This document shows positions 43,354 through 56,445 of a stretch of DNA of 59,697 nucleotides, piece by piece. The stretch lies in assembly GCA_022821275.1 (NCBI GenBank), contig JAJEDY010000034.1:1-59697 (forward strand), read 5' to 3'. Position 1 is the first letter of the stretch. Each line of letters opens with the position of its first letter. The translations under genes and the position numbers were made by a program. Origin of the DNA: Candidatus Latescibacterota bacterium (GTDB taxonomy: Bacteria; Latescibacterota; UBA2968). The notes beneath the pieces were generated by a model that saw nothing but the letters and a program-made list of their open reading frames with translations, ran no database searches and had not been told where the DNA came from.

Positions 43354-44325
43354 TTATGTATTGAGATCTACTTCCTTAAACATCGGTGGTAGGGAAGCAC
43401 TCTCAACCGACTTATATTCCACTGCGGAATGTGGATACGCAAAACCGAGGCGGTCGCTTTTAGCAAATGCCTCCACGACATTCGCAACAATAGCAGTCGA
43501 TATCTTTTGTCGCTCTACGGCAATTGATTGATAACGCAAACGCATCATAACTCCCGAATCAAAAAACTCCGCTCGCACCTCGGGTTCTTTTCCCGTTTCC
43601 TCTACAATTGTCCCCGTCACTTCCCGCGCACAGGTAATCAGCGTCTCTTCCGCCAATTTGTAATCCGAATCGTAGGACACCCTTATGGGCACCTCATCCA
43701 GAATATACTTCGTCTCTTCAGACACAGCATAATTGATCACCATCTGGTCGAACAACACCGCATTGGGAATCAAAATACCGCGATTGGAAGACTCCTCACC
43801 GCCTATTGTACCGCCGACCTCACCCAGCAAAATATGCGTTGGCGAAATCTCCAACACATCGCCTCGCACACCCTGAATAATAATGCGATCTCCAATTTTA
43901 AAAGGCCGCTTAATCATCACCATCAACCATGCGGCCACGCCCGTTACCGGACGCTGCAGAGACCAGCCCAAAATCATACTGACAAAAGCAACCGTCAGCC
44001 CCATTGCCGCCAGAGACCCCGACAGACTTACAATGACAAAAACAATACCAACCAGCATAAACGAATATCGCCACATCGTCAAAAACTGACTAATTTGTGC
44101 ATCTGTACGATGGTGTTCCTCCATTGCGAGGATGATCAATCTCTTCGATATCTTATAGGCAAACAGCAACACAATCAATATCACAACCGCATATAAAATA
44201 CCGACTATGGACTCTCCCAGAGTCTCCGTCATGGACAGCTTGATATTTCGCACATAATCAAATGGCCTGGTCCGCGTCGCAACTGCCTTCAATGTATCCT
44301 GTGCGACCGTCAATGTGTCCGCCAT
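43354..44325 (-). CDS. MscS-family mechanosensitive channel (operon gene 5)
   Basis: This 323-residue protein has about four membrane helices in the first 145 residues; the pore-lining helix region includes LGWSLQRPVTGVAAWLMVMI. The MscS beta domain follows (FKIGDRIIIQGVRGDVLEIS, then GILIPNAVLFDQMVINY). An insertion rich in Gly/Glu (GEVGGTIGGEESSNRG) within the beta domain is unusual. AGGAGGAG precedes ATG 44325. It is the last gene of the five-gene channel operon, 24 bp after another MscS gene. Channel family certain; gating stimulus unknown. Confidence 0.9.
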   Translation of the reverse strand: MADTLTVAQDTLKAVATRTRPFDYVRNIKLSMTETLGESIVGILYAVVILIVLLFAYKISKRLIILAMEEHHRTDAQISQFLTMWRYSFMLVGIVFVIVSLSGSLAAMGLTVAFVSMILGWSLQRPVTGVAAWLMVMIKRPFKIGDRIIIQGVRGDVLEISPTHILLGEVGGTIGGEESSNRGILIPNAVLFDQMVINYAVSEETKYILDEVPIRVSYDSDYKLAEETLITCAREVTGTIVEETGKEPEVRAEFFDSGVMMRLRYQSIAVERQKISTAIVANVVEAFAKSDRLGFAYPHSAVEYKSVESASLPPMFKEVDLNT

Positions 44326-44349: not shown

Positions 44350-45240
44350 TTATTCTTTTCTTTTATTACCATCCGATTGTGTAGCCACACTCATTGGCAC
44401 GGCACTTCGCACATGCAAATCCCGCTGCGGGAATGGAATCGTAATATCCCGCTCGCGAAATGCCCGGACAATTGCAAAATTCAAATCACTGATCACAAAT
44501 AACTGACGGGGTGGATCCTCAATCCACACCAGCAAATCAAAATTCAGAGAACTATCGCCAAAGCCCAGAAACTGCATCTGCGGTTCGGGATCGGACAAAA
44601 CCTCTGGATGCGCTCGCCCAACCTCCAACAACGTCTCCGCGACCAATTCCACATCGGCACCATAAGACACACCCACAGATGCGTGAATACGCACTTTTGA
44701 CTCTTCAAAACTCCAGTTTGTGACATTTTCAGATAGAAATTTTGAATTGGGCACAATAATCGTCACATTATCCAGGGTATAGACCTTTGTGCTATAGGCA
44801 TTGACCGCCTGCACGCGGCCCTGCACGCCATCTACCTCCACAAAATCCCCCTCCTGCACGGGGCGCTCAAACAACATAATGAGCCCGCTGATAAAATTGT
44901 GGGTAATCGTTTGCAACCCCAAACCAATCCCCACCAGCAATACCGCACTAACCGCAGCCAATGTCGTCAGATTAATCCCGGTATATTCTATGGCGATAAA
45001 TACGCCGATGCACATGATAACAATGTGCAATAGGCGACATATAGCTGACTGCGAACCTTTATTTATATGTATCTGTTCAAACACGCTACGCCGCAACAGG
45101 CGTTGCAAAAATCGCGATATCCCATACGCAATGAGGATAATCAGCGTAGCCGTCAGCAAAATAGCTGGCGTTATTTCTATTTCGCCAAAAGAAACGATTG
45201 GCTCCTCAATTACCTTGCGTAAATTATCCCAGGGATTCAT
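44350..45240 (-). CDS. MscS-family mechanosensitive channel (operon gene 4)
   Basis: The 296-residue protein has three main membrane helices, the pore helix region LLVGIGLGLQTITHNFISGL, and the MscS beta domain EGDFVEVDGVQGRVQAVNAY with IVPNSKFLSENVTNWS. It resembles small MscS/MscK-core proteins. GGGAGGA precedes ATG 45240, only three bases after the stop of the CASTOR/POLLUX-like gene, so translation is coupled. Three distinct MscS proteins in one operon could form hetero-heptamers or give graded tension responses; that is inference. Confidence 0.92.
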   Translation of the reverse strand: MNPWDNLRKVIEEPIVSFGEIEITPAILLTATLIILIAYGISRFLQRLLRRSVFEQIHINKGSQSAICRLLHIVIMCIGVFIAIEYTGINLTTLAAVSAVLLVGIGLGLQTITHNFISGLIMLFERPVQEGDFVEVDGVQGRVQAVNAYSTKVYTLDNVTIIVPNSKFLSENVTNWSFEESKVRIHASVGVSYGADVELVAETLLEVGRAHPEVLSDPEPQMQFLGFGDSSLNFDLLVWIEDPPRQLFVISDLNFAIVRAFRERDITIPFPQRDLHVRSAVPMSVATQSDGNKRKE

Positions 45241-45243
45241 AGC

Positions 45244-47211
45244 TCAATCCTCCCGAATCAATACAATAAGATCATCCGACTCACTTAGCCTATATGGCTC
45301 ATCATGCGCTGGATTGAGCGCGACCTCACCGTTTTGCAAGCGAACGCCCAGCGCGATTTCGCCCCGACCTGATGACATCTCCATAAGCTGTCTAAAACTC
45401 ACATTTTGACCTGCTATGCCGTAATCTGAAACCCTGCGAAAACAAATCTCTGCACCACCGGCGGCAAATAACTCTTCATAAACGGCATTGAGTTCCCGAC
45501 GCAACGCGACCTGCGCCAGCACATGGCTCGCGATCATAGGCGTAATCAGCACCTCTGTATCGTAATCCTCAAACAACGCCACATTGTCGGAATCCAGCAA
45601 ATCGACCAGAATTTCTGGTTTATGCACGCTCTCCTCCAGCACATTCCTCAGCACCAGATGTACCACAATCGTCCGCGCATCCGACTCTTCCTGTGTCTCT
45701 ACCCAGTCACTGCCCAAAATAACCACATTATCATACTCGCTTGGCTCCATTTTTCTTAAATTTGATAGCGAAGTCGTCTCACCTTCGCGATGGGCGACAA
45801 CCACGCGGCGCAGATCAATGCCTTTTTGTTCTATCTCTGCTTCTCTTTGCGCCGCAGGTACAAGAGACAAAACCGTGACCTCAAACAGTTCGTTGATCTG
45901 CCTGCCAAACTCTTTGAGCAAATCCGCTGCTTTGTGGTTCCATCCCAAAATTAAGACGCGTCGTTTGCCCTTTTCCCTTGCATAAGACACTTCCTGAAAT
46001 TTACGCGATACGCGTTCTATCTGATAATTTCTCAGGGGTTCACAATCCCCGTAATCTTCTGCCAAAAAGACCAGACGGTCTTCTGATTCCAAAATTAGAT
46101 CCCCGGGTGGATTGAGCAGAGGGCAAAAATCCTCACCTTTAGGACGCACAACGCCCAGCAAAATCGCTTTGGGATACGCACCTGAAAGATCCCCAAAACG
46201 AAAACCCGTAAACTGTTCGGAGGTGCGAATATAGACCTCATTGCCAAGCCCGTGCGACAAAATATCGTGGAACACATGCGACAATCCCGGATGACGCACA
46301 TTTTGCGCCATACATCGCGTAATAAAAACATCGCTCGCCAAAATTTCTAAAATGCCCCGATAGGCTCTTTTTGCCATAACCACTTTGTCGGAATCGAAAA
46401 TTTCCGTCACCAGCAAGGGCAGACCTTCTTTAGCACCCTGATTCGATATCGACATCAGTGTTTTTATGATACGCATATCCGATTCATCCGCACTGCCATA
46501 AGCAAAATCAGCACCGGGCAAAATAATGACACTCGCATTTTTGAAATCTACGCGTTCCAGATGTTCTATTCGCAGGGGTATTCCCGACCGAAAAGTGATC
46601 TTCTTGGCATTCCACAAAGGACCCAGTGCTCTCCGCAATTCCACTGTGCGCTCCAAACTCACATTTTCGGACAGGATTACCACATGTAACCCACGACGCG
46701 CACCGCGCAATTGTAAAAACCGGCGCACGCGCCCCTCAGCGCGCATCAACTCGCTGACAATTTCGGACGTGCGATTGGTCCATCCCAGAATCAAAATATG
46801 GTTGCGACGCACAATCGGCGTAAGCCCGCGCTCAAAATTGCGAATCGTCTGATTGAGCCACTGCGTCATAATCGCGATCAATGACCCCATAAAAAGCACA
46901 TAGCCCAGCACTGTCACCATCGTTGAAATCACGCGACGGGCAAGCCCTTCGTCATCCCCTAAATAACCCGGATCGGTCAAACGCAAAAATGCCCACCAGA
47001 TAGCTGTTTCGCGATCATCAAAAGGCGCGTCCGTAGCCTGCACCAGCAAACCACCACCAACGGCAACCAACCCGATTACCGAAGCAATGACCAGCAGATG
47101 AAAGCGGACGCCCAGCAACAACAATCGCTCAACGCGAAATTTCAGATAATTTTTTATTCGCGCAAACGGGTCAGTCGTTCGCGATCGCAGTTGTAAAAAA
47201 AAATTTTCCAA
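45244..47211 (-). CDS. CASTOR/POLLUX (DMI1)-like ion channel (operon gene 3)
   Basis: TTG 47211 is preferred (655 residues) since AAAGGTGG lies six bases before it; TTG 47229, directly after the preceding stop, would add six residues. Counting from the longer form, there are membrane segments at about 42-63 and 99-122 with a pore-helix segment AIWWAFLRLTDPGYLGDDEG between, then two RCK-like Rossmann domains (HILILGWTNRTSEIVSELM and RVLILGWNHKAADLLKEFG). This is the layout of CASTOR/POLLUX channels, which in plants conduct nuclear-envelope K+/Ca2+ currents; bacterial members are poorly studied. It is flanked by MscS genes. Confidence 0.87.
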   Translation of the reverse strand: MENFFLQLRSRTTDPFARIKNYLKFRVERLLLLGVRFHLLVIASVIGLVAVGGGLLVQATDAPFDDRETAIWWAFLRLTDPGYLGDDEGLARRVISTMVTVLGYVLFMGSLIAIMTQWLNQTIRNFERGLTPIVRRNHILILGWTNRTSEIVSELMRAEGRVRRFLQLRGARRGLHVVILSENVSLERTVELRRALGPLWNAKKITFRSGIPLRIEHLERVDFKNASVIILPGADFAYGSADESDMRIIKTLMSISNQGAKEGLPLLVTEIFDSDKVVMAKRAYRGILEILASDVFITRCMAQNVRHPGLSHVFHDILSHGLGNEVYIRTSEQFTGFRFGDLSGAYPKAILLGVVRPKGEDFCPLLNPPGDLILESEDRLVFLAEDYGDCEPLRNYQIERVSRKFQEVSYAREKGKRRVLILGWNHKAADLLKEFGRQINELFEVTVLSLVPAAQREAEIEQKGIDLRRVVVAHREGETTSLSNLRKMEPSEYDNVVILGSDWVETQEESDARTIVVHLVLRNVLEESVHKPEILVDLLDSDNVALFEDYDTEVLITPMIASHVLAQVALRRELNAVYEELFAAGGAEICFRRVSDYGIAGQNVSFRQLMEMSSGRGEIALGVRLQNGEVALNPAHDEPYRLSESDDLIVLIRED

Positions 47212-47229
47212 TACAAACCACCTTTTCAA

Positions 47230-48054
47230 TCAATTATCAACAACATCGGTAAAACGCACATCAGACGGAATGAGCTTGCGTCTGGACAACTCCTTCTTAA
47301 TCCGACGGGTAAGATCGGCGGCAAAATCGTTCTCGTAGCGCGTGTCAAATACGTACGCCTTCACCACGAGATGCGTCAGATGCGTCTCTTCAAATTTGTC
47401 CTTGACATTGACCACCACTGGTTTTTTAAGATATGCGAGCCTGGACGTCAACACAGCCTCGCGAGCCACATCCTCAATCTCCTTCAAATCAGTCCGTGCT
47501 GGCAGGTATATATCTACAACAACCTGGCAATCGAGATTTCCCGCATTGGTATTCGACACCTCAGAAGTCAGCAACGTAGAGTTCGGCACGGTAACGAGTG
47601 AGTCATCGGTCGTCTGTAGCTTTGTGCTGCGCAGACCAATCGACACAACCTCGCCGTAATAAGAGCCTACTGTCACGCGATCGCCAATTTGGAAGGAACG
47701 ATCAAACAACACGACAATACCGCCAATAAGATCGTTGAGCAAGTCTTTCGCGGCAAGCCCAAGTGCCAAAGCAATTGACCCCAGCAGGGCGAACAGAGTA
47801 TTCTGTTCGGGTGCGATAATAACGATACAGTAATAAATCGCAACCCCGTAAACACCGATACGCAGCAGGGGCTGAACGCGCTTAAATAGCAAGCGATGCG
47901 AAGGGAATCTGCTGGCCCCAAAATCCAACGCAAGACGGATGACGGCTGTCACCGCATAAGCGACCGCAATCACCAGCAGGACAGCCACTATTTTGGCAGC
48001 GTTAATATGTAAGCCACCGTTTCCTGTGAGTTGTTCGAGAGGGGAAGTATCCAT
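47230..48054 (-). CDS. MscS-family mechanosensitive channel (operon gene 2)
   Basis: The 274-residue protein has three membrane helices, a pore region LLGSIALALGLAAKDLLNDLIGG-like (ALALGLAAKDLLNDLIGGIV) with the MscS Ala/Gly pattern, and the beta domain FQIGDRVTVGSYYGEVVSIG with VTVPNSTLLTSEVSN. It is the closest of the three to E. coli MscS in size. It lies 23 bp after the voltage-sensor ATPase gene; its stop abuts the next gene. Family certain; membership of the operon strongly supported by spacing. Confidence 0.92.
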   Translation of the reverse strand: MDTSPLEQLTGNGGLHINAAKIVAVLLVIAVAYAVTAVIRLALDFGASRFPSHRLLFKRVQPLLRIGVYGVAIYYCIVIIAPEQNTLFALLGSIALALGLAAKDLLNDLIGGIVVLFDRSFQIGDRVTVGSYYGEVVSIGLRSTKLQTTDDSLVTVPNSTLLTSEVSNTNAGNLDCQVVVDIYLPARTDLKEIEDVAREAVLTSRLAYLKKPVVVNVKDKFEETHLTHLVVKAYVFDTRYENDFAADLTRRIKKELSRRKLIPSDVRFTDVVDN

Positions 48055-48077: not shown

Positions 48078-50648
48078 TTACAAGAGACCGCGTCCTTCCA
48101 GCATTTCCTCTACGGCTTTCAAACCAATGGGATTGATGCGAAAACGCGTCGATTCCTGATCAAACTCGAGAATATTATCGTTCCACAGAATCTCGAGTTC
48201 CAGTCTGGTCTGGATGAGGTCTTTGTCGAGTATTGTCGATAATTCGGCGGCAGTAAGATTGTCGTGCTGCAAAACCGCGATTAAAATAAAAGCCTGATCA
48301 AGCGAGAAACCCCGCACAATACCAAGGTCAATTTCGCTGACAGGATTAACCATAAGGAGTTCGTTTTCCGAAGACTCAAGCGACCGCAACCAGTACAGAA
48401 GAGCGACAGAAATATTCTCCTTGCAGATCTCCGCCAGACGTCTGAAATAGATCTGGGCCAGCGCGTCCTGAACGGCTGGCTCTTCTGGCCGTCGCCAGCG
48501 ATGCACACGCCGCCGCAAAACTTTTTCCAACTCCTTATTTATCGCATAGCGCAAACGGTAGCCACTCTGGTTGTGACGCTGCATAATCAGCATCTGTAAC
48601 GCCACTGGTTGCCACGCGCGAATTCCGACCTCAAAGTGAAATAGGCGATTCAGAGGCAGCCACATACCGAGATAGTTGCGCGCATGCTGGTCAAGAGAAA
48701 TACCCCAGAGTATGTGGTGATTCGTACGCGCGATGAGCCATAGAAGGTGCTGGACCGCATCCAGGCCACCAATACGTTTAAAAAACAGATTGTGACACCC
48801 TTCGAGTATCACAGCGCGTCGCGGACCCTGCAACAAGCTCCGTGCCAGATCATCAAAGCTCGCCACATTTTCGATCTCAAGAATATTTGCCAGATAAGAC
48901 ACCAGTTCAGGTCCGGTCGTCATCTTGCGCTCAATTGCGGATCGAGTTACAACCGAAGCGTCGTCGAACAATCGCAAGACAGCAATATTCAGCAACGTCG
49001 TTTTGCCCGCGCTTCGCTGTCCGAATAAGATAAAGGAAGAAGTAAGACCATCTTCCCAGCGCTGAATCGCCTGTTCAATAGTAGCCAACTCGTCGTCAAA
49101 TCCGACAAATAATGCCTCGTCATTCAAGGAATCGAAAGCGAAATGGGCGATATAGTCTTCGGGCAGTCCGAGATGTCTGATCGACTCCAAATTGGCTTCG
49201 TCGAGTGCCAGACGAACTTCGCGCTCGGCCGGTGCCATCAAACCCAGGCGGCGCAACGCGGGTTTGATGATACTGGAGACAGCATTAAATAGTGCAATCC
49301 CCTGCACTCGGAAGAATGACAACAGGCGCAGCAATACCTGTCTGCACGCTCTCAGGGCTGTCAGAGTTCTCTGGCGGACAAATCGTCCGAGCTTTGCGAG
49401 CCAGAACACAATTCGGCCATAACGGGCAGCGTCCTGACCGACCAGTTCCAACCGCTCTTGATGCTCGCATTCAAGCTCCCACAGCAGCGACTCCCACGCC
49501 ATTCGGGTATAGTCGTTGAGGTCTCGCAATCGATTGATCGCGCGATTGAAGCCCATCTGAACATCGGGTAATAGTGTACCATCGCCTTGCGACAGGCCAT
49601 TATCAACCGTGTTGAGGACATATCTCAGCGTGCTAAACACACTGTCTAAACCTTCGAGTGATCCTTCAATGCGGATTTTTTCAAATTGCTGGTAAGAGGT
49701 ATCGGCCCTATTCTCCAGACCGCTAAAATGAGAAGAGCCAATCTGGCACAGTGGGACAAGCCGGTAGCTCGTTCGACCTTTCCAATTCAGATCGTGCTCA
49801 TAACTGACCTTTTCCGGCACATTGTCGAAAACCGTGGCGGAGTTTCGGAATGCGTCCCGATTTAAAGCCTCCACCTCAGCCAACATATTGGGATTACACA
49901 AATCTGCACGAAACGAGTCGAAAATCTGTTGCACGGTTTCTCGCGTCTGCGGAAGTGAATCTTTCAGAGCCTGAGGACGGCGGCGCAGTTGGATCGATAC
50001 ATCTTGTTGTATCCTTCTCAAATCCTCGATTACAGACTCTGCGCGCTGGCGGACAGAGTGCAGGTCTTTCTCTTGCTCCGCACGCACGATTTGGCGCACC
50101 TCAGATAGCTGGCGTCGGATGTTCCCGATGGCTACCCTGTAGCCTGTAATTTCCTCTGGAGGCTCGGTATAGTTATGAGTAAGACGAATGAGATCGATCA
50201 ATCTCGGGCAGCGCAACAGACGAAGAAACCGCAGATCGAACAACACAAGGGGAAAGAAAAAATTCAGAATGACGACGAGATCGGCGATCTGTAGCGGACG
50301 AAGTCCAAAACGCAGTCGGGCGGCAAGGTGTGTTCCACCAGCCGCCTGGACAGACCACATACGCGCCAGATATTCAACAATGAGCAAACCAATAAAAAGC
50401 CATTCGAACCAGTAAGAATAATAGAGAAAATAATAATGCAGGATATCGTTACTTGGCCACCACTCAAACCGCTGCAGATACTCCACGAGGGTTTTCGGCC
50501 ACCAGATATCGAGGCATTGAACACCCGTACTAAAAAGCACAAGAGCGAGTATTGCCCAGTTGATTCGCCGGCTGAACAAGTCGCCAGGACCGGCGACTTC
50601 GAGAATTTCGTATGTTCGATTTTTTATTTTTTTAAAAATGGCGATCAT
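48078..50648 (-). CDS. Voltage-sensor-domain / coiled-coil / P-loop ATPase fusion protein (operon gene 1)
   Basis: The 856-residue protein opens with four helices that match a voltage sensor. S1 is about 31-50. S2, about 71-98, ends LLIVEYLARMWS with the conserved E-x-x-x-R. S3, about 118-137, contains IADLVVILNF with its Asp. S4, about 138-156, is DLRFLRLLRCPRLIDLIRL, with Arg at 140, 143, 146, 149 and 155. No pore helices follow. Residues about 165-500 are helical and partly coiled coil. Walker A is FGQRSAGKTTLL (543-550) and a Walker-B-like strand is RAVILEGCHNLF (about 611-622). A winged-helix-like end follows (TAAELSTILDKDLIQTRLEL). I know no described protein with this architecture. It heads the channel operon. 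Confidence 0.8.
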   Translation of the reverse strand: MIAIFKKIKNRTYEILEVAGPGDLFSRRINWAILALVLFSTGVQCLDIWWPKTLVEYLQRFEWWPSNDILHYYFLYYSYWFEWLFIGLLIVEYLARMWSVQAAGGTHLAARLRFGLRPLQIADLVVILNFFFPLVLFDLRFLRLLRCPRLIDLIRLTHNYTEPPEEITGYRVAIGNIRRQLSEVRQIVRAEQEKDLHSVRQRAESVIEDLRRIQQDVSIQLRRRPQALKDSLPQTRETVQQIFDSFRADLCNPNMLAEVEALNRDAFRNSATVFDNVPEKVSYEHDLNWKGRTSYRLVPLCQIGSSHFSGLENRADTSYQQFEKIRIEGSLEGLDSVFSTLRYVLNTVDNGLSQGDGTLLPDVQMGFNRAINRLRDLNDYTRMAWESLLWELECEHQERLELVGQDAARYGRIVFWLAKLGRFVRQRTLTALRACRQVLLRLLSFFRVQGIALFNAVSSIIKPALRRLGLMAPAEREVRLALDEANLESIRHLGLPEDYIAHFAFDSLNDEALFVGFDDELATIEQAIQRWEDGLTSSFILFGQRSAGKTTLLNIAVLRLFDDASVVTRSAIERKMTTGPELVSYLANILEIENVASFDDLARSLLQGPRRAVILEGCHNLFFKRIGGLDAVQHLLWLIARTNHHILWGISLDQHARNYLGMWLPLNRLFHFEVGIRAWQPVALQMLIMQRHNQSGYRLRYAINKELEKVLRRRVHRWRRPEEPAVQDALAQIYFRRLAEICKENISVALLYWLRSLESSENELLMVNPVSEIDLGIVRGFSLDQAFILIAVLQHDNLTAAELSTILDKDLIQTRLELEILWNDNILEFDQESTRFRINPIGLKAVEEMLEGRGLL

Positions 50649-50776: not shown

Positions 50777-51736
50777 TTAGGGTGTCGCGATCTCCGTCGC
50801 CAGATGCAAAACCGCATCGCCGCGATGCACCAGAGGCGATATAGTCCGTCCAATCACCAGGCCATCTCGCGGCGCTGTCAAATTTAGAGTACTGCTGCCA
50901 AAAGGATCGGAAATATCACCCAATTTCTGCCGCCTTTTGACTTGCTCTCCCATTGACACATCCAACTGCAAAATACCACTTTGCCGCGCTCGAATCCAGG
51001 TCGTGCGCGTAACCTCGACCGAGGGCGCAACATCTGGGGCGATGGGTTCTGCGAGCATGTCCAGTGCCCACAGAACTCTCAAAACGCCATTCACACCCAT
51101 TTCTATCGCACTCTCGTTGAACCGCATTGGCTCGCCCCCTTCATACAACAGAAACGGAATGCCACGCCCTGTCGCTACCCGACGCAGCGACCCCGCTGGA
51201 CTGGTGCTATCGATCAGCACGGGCGCGGCAAATGCCTCGGCAATGCGCCGCGTTTCCCCATCTTTCAAATTTGCGCGTATCTGGGGCAAATTTGTACGCG
51301 GCGGTGCTGCCGTGTGCAAGTCGATCCCGTGAGTACACCGATAGACTACTTCGCTCGAGAACAAATGCGCCAACCTCGACGCCAGAGAACCGCGCTGTGA
51401 TCCGGGAAAGGACCGATTCAAATCCCGCCGATCGGGCAAATAGCGCGACTCATACACAAAGCCAAAAACATTGACAATGGGCACAGCCACTAATGTACCC
51501 CTCATATTCTCGACCTGCACGCTATCCAAAACCCGCCGAATAATTTCAATCCCATTGATCTCGTCGCCGTGTAGTGCGGCACAAACAAATAGCCGAGGTC
51601 CCGCTTCTCGACCGTGTAGCACTTCTACGGGAATCGTCATCTGGGTATGCGTGTAAAGCATAGCCAGCGGAATTTCGATATTCCCGCGCGTTCCCGGCTC
51701 AATTTTTGTTCCGCTAATTTCAAATGCCTCGCGCAT
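50777..51736 (-). CDS. Succinylglutamate desuccinylase/aspartoacylase-family zinc hydrolase
   Basis: The 319-residue M14-like protein has zinc ligands in ALHGDEINGIEIIRR (H-x-x-E) and GIDLHTAAPPR, plus the catalytic Glu region FLLYEGGEPMRF. The last 80 residues (SGILQLDVSMGEQVKRRQKL, LGDISDPFG) form a barrel-like C-terminal domain of this family. It starts directly at the end of rimK. In many bacteria a gene of this kind follows rimK and is thought to trim or process glutamate-linked products. GAGAGG lies before ATG 51736. Confidence 0.88.
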   Translation of the reverse strand: MREAFEISGTKIEPGTRGNIEIPLAMLYTHTQMTIPVEVLHGREAGPRLFVCAALHGDEINGIEIIRRVLDSVQVENMRGTLVAVPIVNVFGFVYESRYLPDRRDLNRSFPGSQRGSLASRLAHLFSSEVVYRCTHGIDLHTAAPPRTNLPQIRANLKDGETRRIAEAFAAPVLIDSTSPAGSLRRVATGRGIPFLLYEGGEPMRFNESAIEMGVNGVLRVLWALDMLAEPIAPDVAPSVEVTRTTWIRARQSGILQLDVSMGEQVKRRQKLGDISDPFGSSTLNLTAPRDGLVIGRTISPLVHRGDAVLHLATEIATP

Positions 51737-52639
51737 CTAACCTCTCCCACGCGTGCGGGTTCTTCCCCGCTTAGTGTTCTTTTCCAAAAACTCAATAATC
51801 AAGCCCGCAACATCGATATTCGTCGCTTTCTCAATACCTTCAAGACCAGGCGTCGTATTGACTTCCATCACCAGAGGTCCGTGGTTTGACCGCAAAATAT
51901 CCACGCCGGCAATATTCAAACCCATGATCCTTGCCGCACGCACCGCAGTTGACCGCTCCTCGGGCGTAATGCGAATCACCTCGGCAGAGCCACCGCGATG
52001 CAGATTCGAACGAAATTCTCCGGGTTCTGCACGGCGCAGCATCGATGCCACAACGCGCCCGCCAACCACCAGACAGCGAATATCCGTACCCCCGGCCTCC
52101 TTGATAAATTCCTGTACCAGGATATTCGCGTCTAAACCGCGAAATGCCTCGATCACACTTTCGGCTGCCGGATTCGTTTCGGCAAGCACCACGCCAATCC
52201 CCTGCGTGCCTTCCAACAGCTTGATCACGAGCGGCGCACCACCCACAATATTGAGTAAGCCCTCAATATCTTTTGTCGAATGGGCAAAGCCAGTCACGGG
52301 CAATCCAACGCCTTCTCGCGCCAGCAATTGCAGGGACCGCAATTTGTCGCGTGCCCTGGTAATAGCCTGTGATTCATTGGCGGGAAACACCCCCATTATT
52401 TCAAACTGCCTGACAACCGCTGTCCCGTAAAAGGTGTACGACGTGCCAATGCGCGGAATCACGGCATCAAAATCCAATTTTTCACCTCGAAAAATCACCG
52501 CTGGTCGATGGGATGTAATATTCATATAAAGCCGCGCATAATCCACAACGCGCGCCTCATGGCCTCTTTCTGTGGCCGCTTCTTTGAGACGCCGCGTTGA
52601 ATACAATTTCGGGCCACGGGACAAAATTCCAATCTTCAT
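51737..52639 (-). CDS. rimK: RimK ATP-grasp alpha-L-glutamate ligase
   Basis: The 300-residue protein is very close to E. coli RimK over its whole length: [60 protein letters not shown] and [20 protein letters not shown]. RimK adds glutamate residues to the C-terminus of ribosomal protein S6 (bS6) and can make free poly-glutamate. AGGAGG precedes ATG 52639. It sits between a RimB-like protease and an AstE-like hydrolase, the same module that tunes S6 modification in Pseudomonas. Confidence 0.95.
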
Positions 52640-52648
52640 CTCTACCTC

Positions 52649-53104
52649 CTAAGTCTTGCTGTTTACAGGATATCCCGCCCGCAGTGAACGTCCGGGATCT
52701 ACTAAAAACTGACCTCTCAGGGCATGGCGACCCAACAACATCCGAAAACCCATTTCATCGCGATTGGTCAGTGTCAATTCAATTTCCCAATCGCGATTGT
52801 GCATTCGCACGCTGGTGCGAATCACTGGGCGACTTTCTACTTTTCCATCGGAACTTCTCACCCGGCGATATTCAATCACTTCTGCTTCGACTTCCAACGC
52901 CCCACGAGCGGTGCGCTGTATGGGGTGAATCGCAAAACGCACCATCCGCTTGCCCCGCCGCCGAAACCGCTTCAGATTAAATGCGTGCAATGCGGATGAA
53001 CGCGCACCCGTATCGATTTTTGCTTTTATTGCATCGACATTGAAATCGGGCAATGCCACCCACTCGCGCCATCCTATAATCCACATCGGTTCACGCTGTG
53101 TCAC
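52649..53104 (-). CDS. RimB-like ATP-dependent zinc protease (retropepsin-like, PF05618)
   Basis: GTG 53104 (151 residues) is chosen because TAGGAGGG lies just before it; ATG 53140 would add 12 residues that include the ribosome site itself. IGWREWVALPDFNVDAIKAK followed by IDTGARSSALHAF is the diagnostic aspartyl-protease-like DTGARSS motif of this family. NRDEMGFRMLLGRHALRGQF is the other hallmark. In Pseudomonas the equivalent RimB trims glutamate tails added by RimK. It is the first gene of the rimB-rimK-astE-like operon, with nine bases before rimK. Confidence 0.87.
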   Translation of the reverse strand: MTQREPMWIIGWREWVALPDFNVDAIKAKIDTGARSSALHAFNLKRFRRRGKRMVRFAIHPIQRTARGALEVEAEVIEYRRVRSSDGKVESRPVIRTSVRMHNRDWEIELTLTNRDEMGFRMLLGRHALRGQFLVDPGRSLRAGYPVNSKT

Positions 53105-53188
53105 ATTCCCTCCTATAATTTCACGGACGCTTTCTACCAATGGACTCTGGTTTTGGATCAGTTTCTAAATAATTTACAATAAGTCTCT

Positions 53189-53250
53189 CTGTCAAGTATA
53201 TATACACAAAAGCCCCAGACTCATACAACGCCCGGGGCTTTAATTATTAG
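53189..53250 (+). terminator. Terminator-bearing dispersed repeat, copy A
   Basis: CTGTCAAGTATATATACACAAAAGCCCC-type sequence holds a hairpin AAAGCCCC (53209-53216) with GGGGCTTT (53234-53241), followed by TAATTATTA. The same unit recurs at 58251-58312. It separates the RimB-like gene's promoter region from the barrel gene downstream. Confidence 0.75.
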
Positions 53251-53519
53251 CCGTTTATTCGTGCCAGCAGTCTGCATCGACAACCAAAGCGTCAAGACGA
53301 TAACTCAAGGAAAAATCTAAAAAATTAAAATGTCAAAAAAAGAAGGGGTGGCTAAGAGAAAGAAAGCGCACTTAAAGACGGTCTATCGCGCTCAAAACAG
53401 GTCGGCATACACAGCATGGATGGAGCCACCCATTCCCCGCTTATGCCCCCACAGTGTGGGTATATAGGCGACTCCAACCTTGTCGCAGCATGCTCGCTCA
53501 ATATTCGGGCGACCATTTT
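53251..53519. other. Intergenic stretch without a convincing gene
   Basis: This spacer lies between the repeat terminator and the stop of the minus-strand barrel gene. GGGGTGGCT near 53346 and AGCCACCC near 53424 could pair at long range. A 45-codon ORF (53330-53467) has a poorly spaced ribosome site and is not called. I see no RNA gene. Confidence 0.5.
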
Positions 53520-54686
53520 TTAACGCAGGCGGTACTCGATAGCCATAGTCAGACTCTGAGTGGGATCCTCGCCGCGCGTTTTAGCGATATTACCGGTGAC
53601 ATTGAGATTGATCTGATTCTCAATAAAGAAGATGAATCCCGACCGCACCTGCCCAACCACTATTGCATCGACGTTCGGCTCGCTTCGCGAAGCAATTATG
53701 ATGTTGCTGAGCGTAAAGTCAACGCGGTTGGTTACCTCATAGAGATAATTCAGCGAAAGTGACAGCGTAAAGACGTCGCCAAAATCGCCTGTAAATGGCG
53801 AGGTGTACTGGGCACTGATGTCGAACTGGGACTTCCAGCCCACAGGCCGCGAGTACCTTATTCGCATGGACAACCCGGGATCCTGGCGGGGAGTGTCTGA
53901 ATCCTTTGTCACAGCCTCAAAGCGGATGCCAGTGCGTACATCCCAGCCGATAAAACGCTCGTTCACATGTTCCTGGAAAAGCACTTCATCGACGCGCAAT
54001 GAGCCGACAGCACCGAATCCCCCATCGACAAACATTCCAGACTCGGCAATAACTTCTTCCATCGCCTTGAACCATCTGATTTTGTAACGGTCACCAAATT
54101 GGGTCTCGAACTCTCCCTGACGCTCGATCACCTGAGCAAGCGCGATCAGCGTCTCTTTGGACAGAGGCCCCTTGAGGACGCCTTCGTCCAGCAGGAACTG
54201 CTCAATACGCACGGCCAGGGCGAGTGGTGTAACGCGGATGAAGCGTCCGTACCCCACCCCCGGCGTAGCATCAATAGTCGGGCGATCAAAGTCGCTATTG
54301 CCAGTAACGCGAAGCTCGCCGGAGTAAAAAAAATCACCTTCTGGATTGAAGTACTTCCTGATTCCCGGACCTGCCACGAAATTGTAGGAACCCTCCTGCG
54401 TACCGTCGGCTGTCCGACGTGTCAACCCGACACCGTTGAGGTTGAGGTCCCAGGCGTAAGGCAGGGAATTGTAATATCGCTGGTACACCAGTGAAGCAGA
54501 GCCGTCACTTGTTCCAGTGTTGCTTCCGCTGCCGGAGTAGGAATACGTGCCTCCAAGACGTAGCTGCTGAGCAGTACTCACGGGAACATCATAGTCGTCT
54601 GGAGATACCATCGTCTCTGCCCGCAGTTGAGACGGTGCGATGAAGGCAATGGTGAGCAAAGCCAATACTGTGCGCGTGTTCATCAT
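53520..54686 (-). CDS. Outer-membrane beta-barrel-type protein, 388 aa
   Basis: A signal peptide (VLALLTIAFIAPSQLRAE) is followed by alternating-residue strands throughout (LRLGGTYSYSGSGSNTGTSD, FFYSGELRVTGNSDF, MRIRYSRPVGWKSQFDISAQ) and the C-terminus SLTMAIEYRLR, all typical of a porin-like barrel. Family not recognised. ATG 54683 is an equally good start. It follows the CmpX-like gene by 83 bp on the same strand, so it may be read from the sigma-54 promoter at 56446-56461, but an own promoter is possible. Function unknown; location in the outer membrane is well supported. Confidence 0.75.
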   Translation of the reverse strand: MMNTRTVLALLTIAFIAPSQLRAETMVSPDDYDVPVSTAQQLRLGGTYSYSGSGSNTGTSDGSASLVYQRYYNSLPYAWDLNLNGVGLTRRTADGTQEGSYNFVAGPGIRKYFNPEGDFFYSGELRVTGNSDFDRPTIDATPGVGYGRFIRVTPLALAVRIEQFLLDEGVLKGPLSKETLIALAQVIERQGEFETQFGDRYKIRWFKAMEEVIAESGMFVDGGFGAVGSLRVDEVLFQEHVNERFIGWDVRTGIRFEAVTKDSDTPRQDPGLSMRIRYSRPVGWKSQFDISAQYTSPFTGDFGDVFTLSLSLNYLYEVTNRVDFTLSNIIIASRSEPNVDAIVVGQVRSGFIFFIENQINLNVTGNIAKTRGEDPTQSLTMAIEYRLR

Positions 54687-54769
54687 TGTATCACTCCTCA
54701 GGTTTAAGGTTTGTATTGCGTTGACTGTTGGATTGAGACCATTCTACAGCCCACACCTCAACAATAGTG

Positions 54770-56389
54770 CTACCTTTCCTCTGATTCCGAAGATTCATCC
54801 TTGTTTATCTCTTCCAGACTCTGTGTCCATTGCTCCATCTGCTTTTTCGCCAGGTCGCGCCCTCCCATGCCGAACGCAATCGCGGCGGCGATAGCTGCCG
54901 AACCAAGAATGAGTCCGAAGGCGAGGGTAATGATCTCATTTGCGATGCCCATCTGCCCGAGTGCCATAAAGAGAGACAGTGCTACGATCGCAACCCGGAC
55001 GATTGTACTGAGTATGCTGCCATAGGCACCCCCTTTTCTGGACGCGATGCGACCGAATATAGATGCGAGGTAAAGCCCGAAACCGAAGATCACCACGCCC
55101 AGGACAACCTTGCCAAATAGCAGCGTCAGCGTCACGAACATGCCTGCCAACTCCTGGAATCCGAGTTGCGCGGTTGCCTCAATAGCCGAGAAGAGGAGGA
55201 CAGCCACCATGGCGACGTATCCCGCTATTTGCGAAGGTGGACGATCCAACGCAAAGGTTGTCGCCACTGTTGAAGACGGGCGGTCCCCCTCAGAGGTCGC
55301 CTCCGCAATGGAAGGCGATTGTTCCTCAGCAACGGTCACCTCCGCTATTCCGAGGCGCTGTAGCAGCGTGTTGAAGCCTATTTGTCTGAGCACATCGTCA
55401 ACTATGCGGGATACCAATCGAGCCACCAGATACCCGATGAGGAGGATACCTCCAGCGACCAGGATAGACGGCACTGCGGCCAATACCCCCTCCAGCATAG
55501 AACTGGCGGGATCGGAAATAGCCTCGAAGTTTAGCGATTCGAGTGCGGCGATTGCTGCGAATATCAAGATGACTGCATAAGACAACGTACCGGCAAGCCC
55601 CGAAAGGCTTTCGATACCCAGTCCAGTTGCCAGCCCCACGCGACGACCAAAATTGTTTATCCCGGTGGCGTCGAGGACGTTGGTGATTATCTGCTGGACG
55701 ATGCGCGCACCGAGCCAGCCGATTAGCATGATGAGGGCGGCGGCGAACAGGTTGGGCAGGAAACCGATGATTTTGGCCATCATTTGCTGTACTGGTTGTA
55801 GCAATCCCTGCAAGCCCAGAACATCCAGGATAGCCGGTAGTAGCACGAGAAACGTGAGCCAGTACACCACGTTGCCGATTGTCTGCGGCAGCCCGCTCTC
55901 TGTTGCGGTCTCAAGCCCGGCTGGTTCAGCCAAACGTTGCTCGATATTTGCTCGTGATAGCACGGCCGTTACGATTCTCCGCAACAGACTACCCACGAGC
56001 CAGGCAATCAAAAGCAGCGCGGCGGCGCTCAACAGCTTGGGTAAGTAGATCAAAATTTGGCTCAGCATCGCGTTGAGGGGGACGGTCACTGTCGTCAGGC
56101 CGAGTATCTGAAAGAAGGCAACGAGCACGAAGATCATCACCAGATAGAACACTGCCCTGCTGATCCAGCGTTCAACGTGGATGTTCGCAGCGGCGTCGCG
56201 GCCCATGACCAGTTCGAGCAATCTGTCATCTACTTGCGTTTTGAGCAGCACTCGACGGACGACCCAGGCCACCAGATGAGCCACTATCCATCCGAACACG
56301 AGGATAGTAAAAGGTAAGATGATATGTGCAAAGGGTGAGAAGTATTGCTCCCACCATTCCCAACCTTCAAACATATTTGCTATTTCCAT
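54770..56389 (-). CDS. CmpX-like membrane protein with conserved TM-helix (PF05552) repeats
   Basis: ATG 56389 (539 residues) has AGAAAGGA six bases before it; ATG 56407 would add six residues. Four copies of the mechanosensitive-channel 'conserved TM helix' unit are visible: LLSAAALLLIAWLVGSLLRR, LFAAALIMLIGWLGARIVQQ, ILVAGGILLIGYLVARLVSR and a fourth near VVLGVVIFGFGLYLASIFGR. No MscS beta domain follows. Pseudomonas CmpX, linked to envelope stress, is the best-known relative. Upstream lies a consensus sigma-54 promoter and the divergent NtrC-type activator, so expression probably depends on that activator. Channel activity is not established. Confidence 0.85.
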   Translation of the reverse strand: MEIANMFEGWEWWEQYFSPFAHIILPFTILVFGWIVAHLVAWVVRRVLLKTQVDDRLLELVMGRDAAANIHVERWISRAVFYLVMIFVLVAFFQILGLTTVTVPLNAMLSQILIYLPKLLSAAALLLIAWLVGSLLRRIVTAVLSRANIEQRLAEPAGLETATESGLPQTIGNVVYWLTFLVLLPAILDVLGLQGLLQPVQQMMAKIIGFLPNLFAAALIMLIGWLGARIVQQIITNVLDATGINNFGRRVGLATGLGIESLSGLAGTLSYAVILIFAAIAALESLNFEAISDPASSMLEGVLAAVPSILVAGGILLIGYLVARLVSRIVDDVLRQIGFNTLLQRLGIAEVTVAEEQSPSIAEATSEGDRPSSTVATTFALDRPPSQIAGYVAMVAVLLFSAIEATAQLGFQELAGMFVTLTLLFGKVVLGVVIFGFGLYLASIFGRIASRKGGAYGSILSTIVRVAIVALSLFMALGQMGIANEIITLAFGLILGSAAIAAAIAFGMGGRDLAKKQMEQWTQSLEEINKDESSESEER

Positions 56390-56445
56390 GGCAATTCCTT
56401 TCTCCATATTGAATGATGTCTATTTTGCTGTCAGGCAAAAATAAC

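Follow-up and report, generated by a model that had tools for sequence, protein, structure and literature searches.

A poreless voltage-sensor domain fused to a STAND/ORC-like ATPase and co-inherited with an MscS-type channel gene in a Latescibacterota bacterium

A 2023 review concluded after database searches that all known prokaryotic voltage-sensor domains (VSDs) are accompanied by an S5–S6 pore (PMC10377628). The works-like analogues in which a VSD controls something besides its own pore, Ci-VSP and SLC9C1, are both eukaryotic (PMC12332018). Ci-VSP of Ciona and TPTE consist of a poreless VSD and a cytoplasmic catalytic domain, namely a PTEN-like lipid phosphatase, and have no channel partner gene. 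In SLC9C1 (sNHE), a voltage-gated Na+/H+ exchanger, the VSD and the exchanger lie in one chain.

The window, the whole stretch of DNA analysed here, comprises 59,697 nucleotides of a metagenome-assembled genome of Candidatus Latescibacterota bacterium. On its minus strand, the open reading frame at 48078–50648 reads from ATG to a stop codon and encodes a protein of 856 residues. The first-pass annotation, made from the sequence alone, had interpreted this protein as a poreless VSD joined through a coiled coil to a P-loop ATPase, and had regarded such a bacterial protein as undescribed. Consistently, the literature search, outside which lay preprints and most subscription journals, found no description of a bacterial VSD–ATPase or of an ATPase–MscS module. 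The protein resembles Ci-VSP and TPTE in its poreless VSD but carries a STAND/ORC-like ATPase as its effector half. In some of its relatives, the input position is taken by a CPA-type exchanger; in contrast to SLC9C1, however, VSD and exchanger replace one another ahead of the ATPase. Each part comes from a known superfamily, but no system of a known kind was found that has this combination.

A voltage-sensor domain without a pore

The features of the protein, with the evidence for each, are as follows.

48078..50648, minus strand: VSD–stalk–ATPase–winged helix protein, 856 residues (intact open reading frame; orthologues at 97, 91, 85 and 41% identity; dN/dS)
50169..50648, minus strand: voltage-sensor domain, residues 1–160 (PF00520, Kv-channel homology, KCNQ1 profile match, model and Foldseek)
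50358..50417, minus strand: S2, residues 78–97, with E82, E92 and R96 invariant among the fusion proteins
50250..50294, minus strand: S3, residues 119–133, with D123 invariant
50178..50237, minus strand: S4, residues 138–157, with R140, R143, R146 and P148 invariant and R149 and R155 variable
49182..50156, minus strand: long helical stalk, residues 165–489 (helical in a low-confidence model)
48378..49181, minus strand: STAND/ORC-like P-loop ATPase domain, residues 490–757 (AAA_16 at E 6e-4, below cut-off; alignment A3; hhalign)
48999..49022, minus strand: Walker A, GQRSAGKT, residues 543–550 (family conservation)
48801..48815, minus strand: Walker B, AVILE, residues 612–616 (Asp or Glu at 616 in 65 of 77 family members)
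48093..48311, minus strand: winged helix, residues 780–852 (pLDDT about 70; MarR_2 match in a relative)

The same architecture is uninterrupted in three relatives of the window genus at 97% (G002), 91% (G005) and 85% (G010) identity, so that four species of the genus, including that of the window, carry an intact gene. Outside the genus it is uninterrupted in G024, whose genome belongs to another family, at 41% identity, and the copy in G032 is split across two contig ends. Because intact homologues occur in several genomes, an origin of the fusion by misassembly or frameshift is ruled out. The gene is patchily distributed, being present in five of the 11 species of the genus. The dN/dS values of 0.11–0.38 across all three parts of the protein indicate purifying selection; in two of the three comparisons, the VSD (0.30 and 0.38) lies above the ATPase.

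Residues 1–160 are a genuine voltage-sensor domain, by sequence and predicted model. The Pfam family PF00520 (Ion_trans) matches residues 29–157 with an E-value of 1.6e-4 at 21.4 bits, below the curated cut-off of 25. Against bacterial six-helix K+ channels carrying the TVGYGD filter sequence, blastp E-values reach 6.7e-19 in a small database, and the VSD is about 30–36% identical to Kv channels of related genomes. A profile built from the fusion proteins only retrieves KCNQ1 (E 2.8e-5) and KCNQ2 (0.008) from the PDB. In a model of residues 1–170 (pLDDT 65, pTM 0.55), helices span residues 24–58, 67–103, 118–131 and 139–161, forming a four-helix S1–S4 bundle homologous to those of channels. 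By Foldseek, the best 25 PDB matches of this model are all KCNQ channels (probability 1.00, TM about 0.6). NavAb and Kv2.1 come next, and all the matches listed are VSD proteins. The sequence evidence outweighs the model, since the E-values of Foldseek are at best 6.5e-3, which is modest, and Kv-type rows were included in the alignment behind the model. The HMM search and the structure prediction that the first-pass annotation had suggested both point in this way to a voltage sensor.

Eight charged residues, R140, R143, R146, E82, E92, R96, D123 and D138, are invariant among the fusion proteins, whose VSDs are only 35% identical, and E92, Y93 and R96 are invariant across the compared Kv channels as well. 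The E92-xxx-R96 motif in S2, D123 in S3, the arginines at 140, 143, 146, 149 and 155 in S4 and Walker A from G543 to T550 all lie where the first-pass annotation had placed them. Its count of five S4 arginines holds in distant homologues for 140, 143 and 146 but not for the other two: R149 is replaced by Asp in G024 and G032, and R155 is missing from three of four compared fusion sequences. The conserved putative gating charge is hence made up of three arginines, not five, together with the conserved countercharges E82 and E92 in S2 and D123 in S3. The domain may move charge with the membrane potential. P148, between R146 and position 149, is found in S4 of all fusion VSDs and not in the Kv relatives. 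At the aromatic cap position, three residues before E92, the window genus has Leu, and G024 and most Kv relatives have Phe.

The absence of a pore is borne out as well. Neither S5–pore–S6 nor a TVGYGD-type motif occurs in the 856-residue protein or its homologues, and hydrophobicity beyond S4 peaks only at isolated points, near residues 452, 559, 630 and 784. A search with the whole protein covered 100 genomes and returned, besides orthologues, many loci that match its first 160 residues only; each of these whose protein was compared is a K+ channel with TVGYGD, and every compared non-fusion VSD protein has a filter of this type. Hence, the VSD is clearly homologous to that of bacterial six-helix Kv channels (PF00520), with KCNQ as the nearest PDB family, whereas a stalk and an ATPase take the place of the pore. 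The protein is therefore not a voltage-gated K+ channel. Nor is it a voltage-sensing phosphatase, as Pfam and NCBIfam scans detect no phosphatase family and no PTEN-like domain. The residues diagnostic of the Hv1 proton channel are absent too: S4 contains no Trp, a residue that eukaryotic Hv1 proteins conserve without exception (PMC10377628), and G024 and G032 do not keep D47, the Asp at the end of S1.

The ATPase family and its exchangeable N-terminal modules

The VSD is followed by a long stalk. Comparison by hhalign detects no homology of the stalk to the stalks of other family members. The stalk is predicted to be long and helical, but the coiled coil that the first-pass annotation had proposed is unconfirmed: the heptad test gives a periodicity of 99 degrees per residue, which is that of a helix with no clear coiled coil.

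The ATPase half has the Walker A and Walker B motifs and a C-terminal winged helix of a STAND/ORC-like ATPase, the class named in the first-pass annotation. It is assigned to this group because the closest Pfam families in the relatives and the window protein are AAA_16, AAA_22 and nSTAND (nSTAND1), the matches of the window protein itself lying below cut-off; an NCBIfam scan of the window protein returns no model. The full-length model has a pLDDT of 36, was built from a shallow alignment of sequences 85–97% identical and is usable for the winged helix only. Residues 783–852, its best-modelled stretch, fold as HHH-EE-H with a pLDDT of about 70, and the relative L192 matches MarR_2 (E 3.7e-6), which corroborates the winged-helix-like tail noticed earlier. 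The ATPase half shares Walker A and B, a conserved Arg at 691 and the C-terminal winged helix with STAND/ORC-Cdc6/ExeA-like ATPases (AAA_16, AAA_22, nSTAND), to which the family of the window protein adds membrane input modules and a dedicated MscS.

Profiles of the ATPase half (alignments A2 and A3) find relatives in distant phyla, and the family is present in 129 of 379 genomes of one further phylum. It spans many phyla and is apparently undescribed. Comparison with the L037 group by hhalign gives an E-value of 2.4e-48 over 360 columns spanning both the ATPase and the winged helix. Among 77 members, G548 is kept in 76 and R691 and W753 in 75 each. The Walker A Lys (K549) is kept in 65, and nine of the remaining members have Arg, so that the conservation anticipated for this residue holds across most of the family but not in some relatives. 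The ATPase half may act as an ATP-dependent switch. The Lys is replaced, mostly by Arg, in 11 members (L094, L154, L159, L173, L174, L189, L200, L204 and others), and in a twelfth, L093, the motif is missing altogether; some of the Lys-replaced members may bind nucleotide without hydrolysing it. In L039 (G032:C255), Walker A reads GPRGGDKT, as against GPRGGGKT, which is either a real variant or an assembly error.

The N-terminal module varies within this family. The ATPase is preceded by the VSD, by an SLC12/APC cotransporter (PF00324 and PF03522), by a CPA-type Na+/H+ exchanger (PF00999), by helices of its own or by no membrane module. In a tree of 77 ATPase domains, the VSD proteins form one clade (SH-aLRT 100) among members with own helices or none, and the N-terminal type changes at least 11 times. 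None of the other members that were inspected contains a VSD. Within a wider ATPase and MscS family, the VSD is one among several inputs that can replace one another, a breadth that the sequence-only first-pass annotation could not reveal. Since many members carry neither sensor nor transporter, the ATPase and MscS core can work without voltage.

Giant SLC12-type cotransporters of about 1700 residues are fused to the same kind of ATPase in L041 (1584–6689), L073 (5444–10591), L075 (2898–8015) and L076 (3633–8807), each beside a shortened MscS gene, and such fusions are common in the phylum of G439. The CPA-type Na+/H+ exchanger is fused to the ATPase in L092 (4640–9160), L154, L202 and L204, with 400–550 additional residues ahead of the exchanger in L202 and L204. 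L192 (3053–7105) has 11 predicted N-terminal transmembrane helices that match no Pfam family and are possibly a further type of transporter.

The dedicated MscS gene and its neighbours

Four channel genes follow the ATPase gene on the same strand.

47230..48054, minus strand: MscS1, dedicated partner channel, 274 residues (PF00924 at E 5.5e-23; partner branch 100/99; co-occurrence)
45244..47229, minus strand: CASTOR/POLLUX-like channel with RCK-type domains (PF06241 at E 4.2e-19, PF22614; neighbour within the genus only)
44350..45240, minus strand: second MscS, outside the partner branch (PF00924 at E 1.6e-21; tree)
43354..44325, minus strand: third MscS, outside the partner branch (PF00924 at E 1.1e-9; tree)

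The start codon of MscS1 lies 23 bp past the stop codon of the ATPase gene. The module is defined here by two features that the window locus shows, an ATPase belonging to alignment A3 and an MscS gene immediately after it. An MscS gene immediately follows that of the ATPase, in the same orientation, in 58 of 60 loci of a survey that was separate from the set examined first, although it used a profile made from that set. Among the loci examined first, MscS adjoins the ATPase gene in all except L072 and is divergent in L076; the two genes overlap by 4 bp in L036, L041, L073 and L093. Because the genomes hold only 2–11 MscS genes each (12 genomes checked), chance adjacency is negligible.

The partner is an MscS-type channel of the family PF00924, and the partners tied to the ATPase form a separate branch of it. 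In a tree of 39 MscS proteins, several of which have long branches, the 17 tested partners are split with 100/99 support from 22 other MscS proteins of the same genomes, among them the second and third MscS of the window. Distances among the ATPases correlate with those among the partner MscS proteins (Mantel r 0.70, with 0 of 2000 permutations as high), in part through shared ancestry. The home phylum was covered by 64 genomes. Of the ten with the ATPase, nine have the partner MscS and the tenth a truncated one, whereas none of the 54 without the ATPase has it. Consistently, the ATPase and MscS1 are both present or both absent within the window genus. Gene adjacency and co-inheritance are no proof of physical contact between the ATPase and MscS.

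The first-pass annotation had linked the protein to the channels encoded behind it. This link stands for MscS1 but not for the other three, as synteny shows that the CASTOR/POLLUX-like channel (PF06241) and the two further MscS genes follow within the window genus only. Control of all four downstream channels by the ATPase is accordingly rejected, only MscS1 travelling with it. The CASTOR/POLLUX-like gene, a member of that ion-channel family in the same gene run, does not accompany the module beyond the genus.

Some partners have little beyond the beta domain. Those of L036 (3134–3667) and L075 (8161–8766) are about 177–201 residues long, comprise hardly anything besides the beta domain and a single helix, and may not form a channel alone. 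Two antiporter-type members, L072 (4729–9363, G168:C169) and L176, have no adjoining MscS gene, and their partner may be elsewhere or lost. Upstream of the window ATPase, a same-strand run conserved in the genus (50777–56407) encodes an AstE/AspA-like enzyme, a RimK ligase, a zinc protease, an unknown outer-membrane-like protein and a tandem-repeat mechanosensitive channel protein (NF033912), and it may be a linked osmotic or glutamate-ligase cluster.

A proposed voltage-responsive switch and its alternatives

A true VSD without a pore, the ATPase motifs, a dedicated, co-inherited MscS and the swapping of VSD, SLC12 and CPA modules, taken with established knowledge of VSDs, STAND ATPases and MscS, suggest that the 856-residue protein is a voltage-responsive controller of MscS1, a reading to which we give about an even chance. 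We infer that the VSD moves with voltage and controls the ATPase, which acts directly on MscS1. The N-terminal VSD would lie within the inner membrane and have its two ends on the cytoplasmic side. When the membrane potential changes, S4 would shift, R140, R143 and R146 passing E92 and D123, and this movement would be transmitted through the helical stalk to the ATPase with its winged helix. Acting as a nucleotide-dependent switch, the ATPase would open, close or assemble MscS1, thereby venting ions or osmolytes once voltage and turgor are out of range.

The VSD fold could instead be a mere membrane anchor, or a bundle responsive to lipid or tension, in a module controlled by nucleotide, osmolarity or the stalk. 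The loss of R149 and R155, the Pro in S4, the Leu at the cap position, the family members with generic helices or no membrane domain and the lower constraint on the VSD than on the ATPase in two of three pairs are consistent with this. However, R140, R143, R146, E82, E92, R96, D123 and D138 are invariant at 35% VSD identity, and a plain anchor does not need paired buried charges, which makes this explanation rather unlikely, although it deserves serious weight. In a further, quite improbable reading, the ATPase helps to fold or assemble the partner MscS, as a chaperone or assembly factor, or regulates by binding DNA through its winged helix, and the VSD serves localisation only. In the PDB, the ATPase profile matches ClpB/Hsp104 best, with ORC subunits also among the matches, and the protein ends in a winged helix; but these matches mainly cover the generic P-loop region, a winged helix is a normal part of ORC and STAND ATPases, and the transporter fusions suggest regulation within the membrane.

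A conflict or defence switch, in which depolarisation, for example on phage entry, would lead the STAND-type ATPase to open MscS as a killing pore, fits the AAA_16, nSTAND1 and AAA_22 matches in relatives, the patchy presence in the genus and the membrane channel as effector. For the ATPase, MscS1 and most of the relatives tried, however, PADLOC contains no relevant model; such matches as there are fall on coiled-coil, P-loop or HTH regions of a generic kind. The window protein has one marginal and irrelevant match, to a coiled-coil protein (E 0.0046), and MscS1 has none, so that by PADLOC the locus is not a known anti-phage system. The neighbours are housekeeping or osmotic genes in stable synteny. 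Because the alternative inputs, SLC12 and CPA, are ion transporters, ion and turgor homeostasis is favoured over defence, which we consider improbable. Finally, the VSD itself might conduct protons or cations and feed the ATPase–MscS module locally. Isolated VSDs can conduct, as is reported for the Shaker VSD (PMC5092046), and Hv1 likewise has three S4 arginines (PMC10651576). The missing S4 Trp and the unconserved D47 speak against this possibility, which appears highly improbable.

The controller of MscS1 proposed here would contain the first poreless prokaryotic VSD, governing an ATPase switch that gates a dedicated MscS, and would be one branch of a widespread, undescribed module with interchangeable inputs (VSD, cation–chloride cotransporter or cation–proton antiporter); for this whole picture the balance of evidence is about level. 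The poreless VSD–ATPase, supported in two genera, is a counterexample to the statement that prokaryotic VSDs always come with a pore (PMC10377628). A VSD–ATPase beside its own MscS suggests a route by which membrane voltage, or ion transporters in the relatives, may control a channel of the pressure-valve type. Provided that the voltage step is real, VSDs serve bacteria as the input of a switch driven by ATP. This would bear on the bacterial membrane potential as a signal and on the origin of VSD effectors such as VSP, and MscS channels might be actively controlled, not gated by tension only. The wider ATPase family offers many testable proteins, with alternative inputs and one output.
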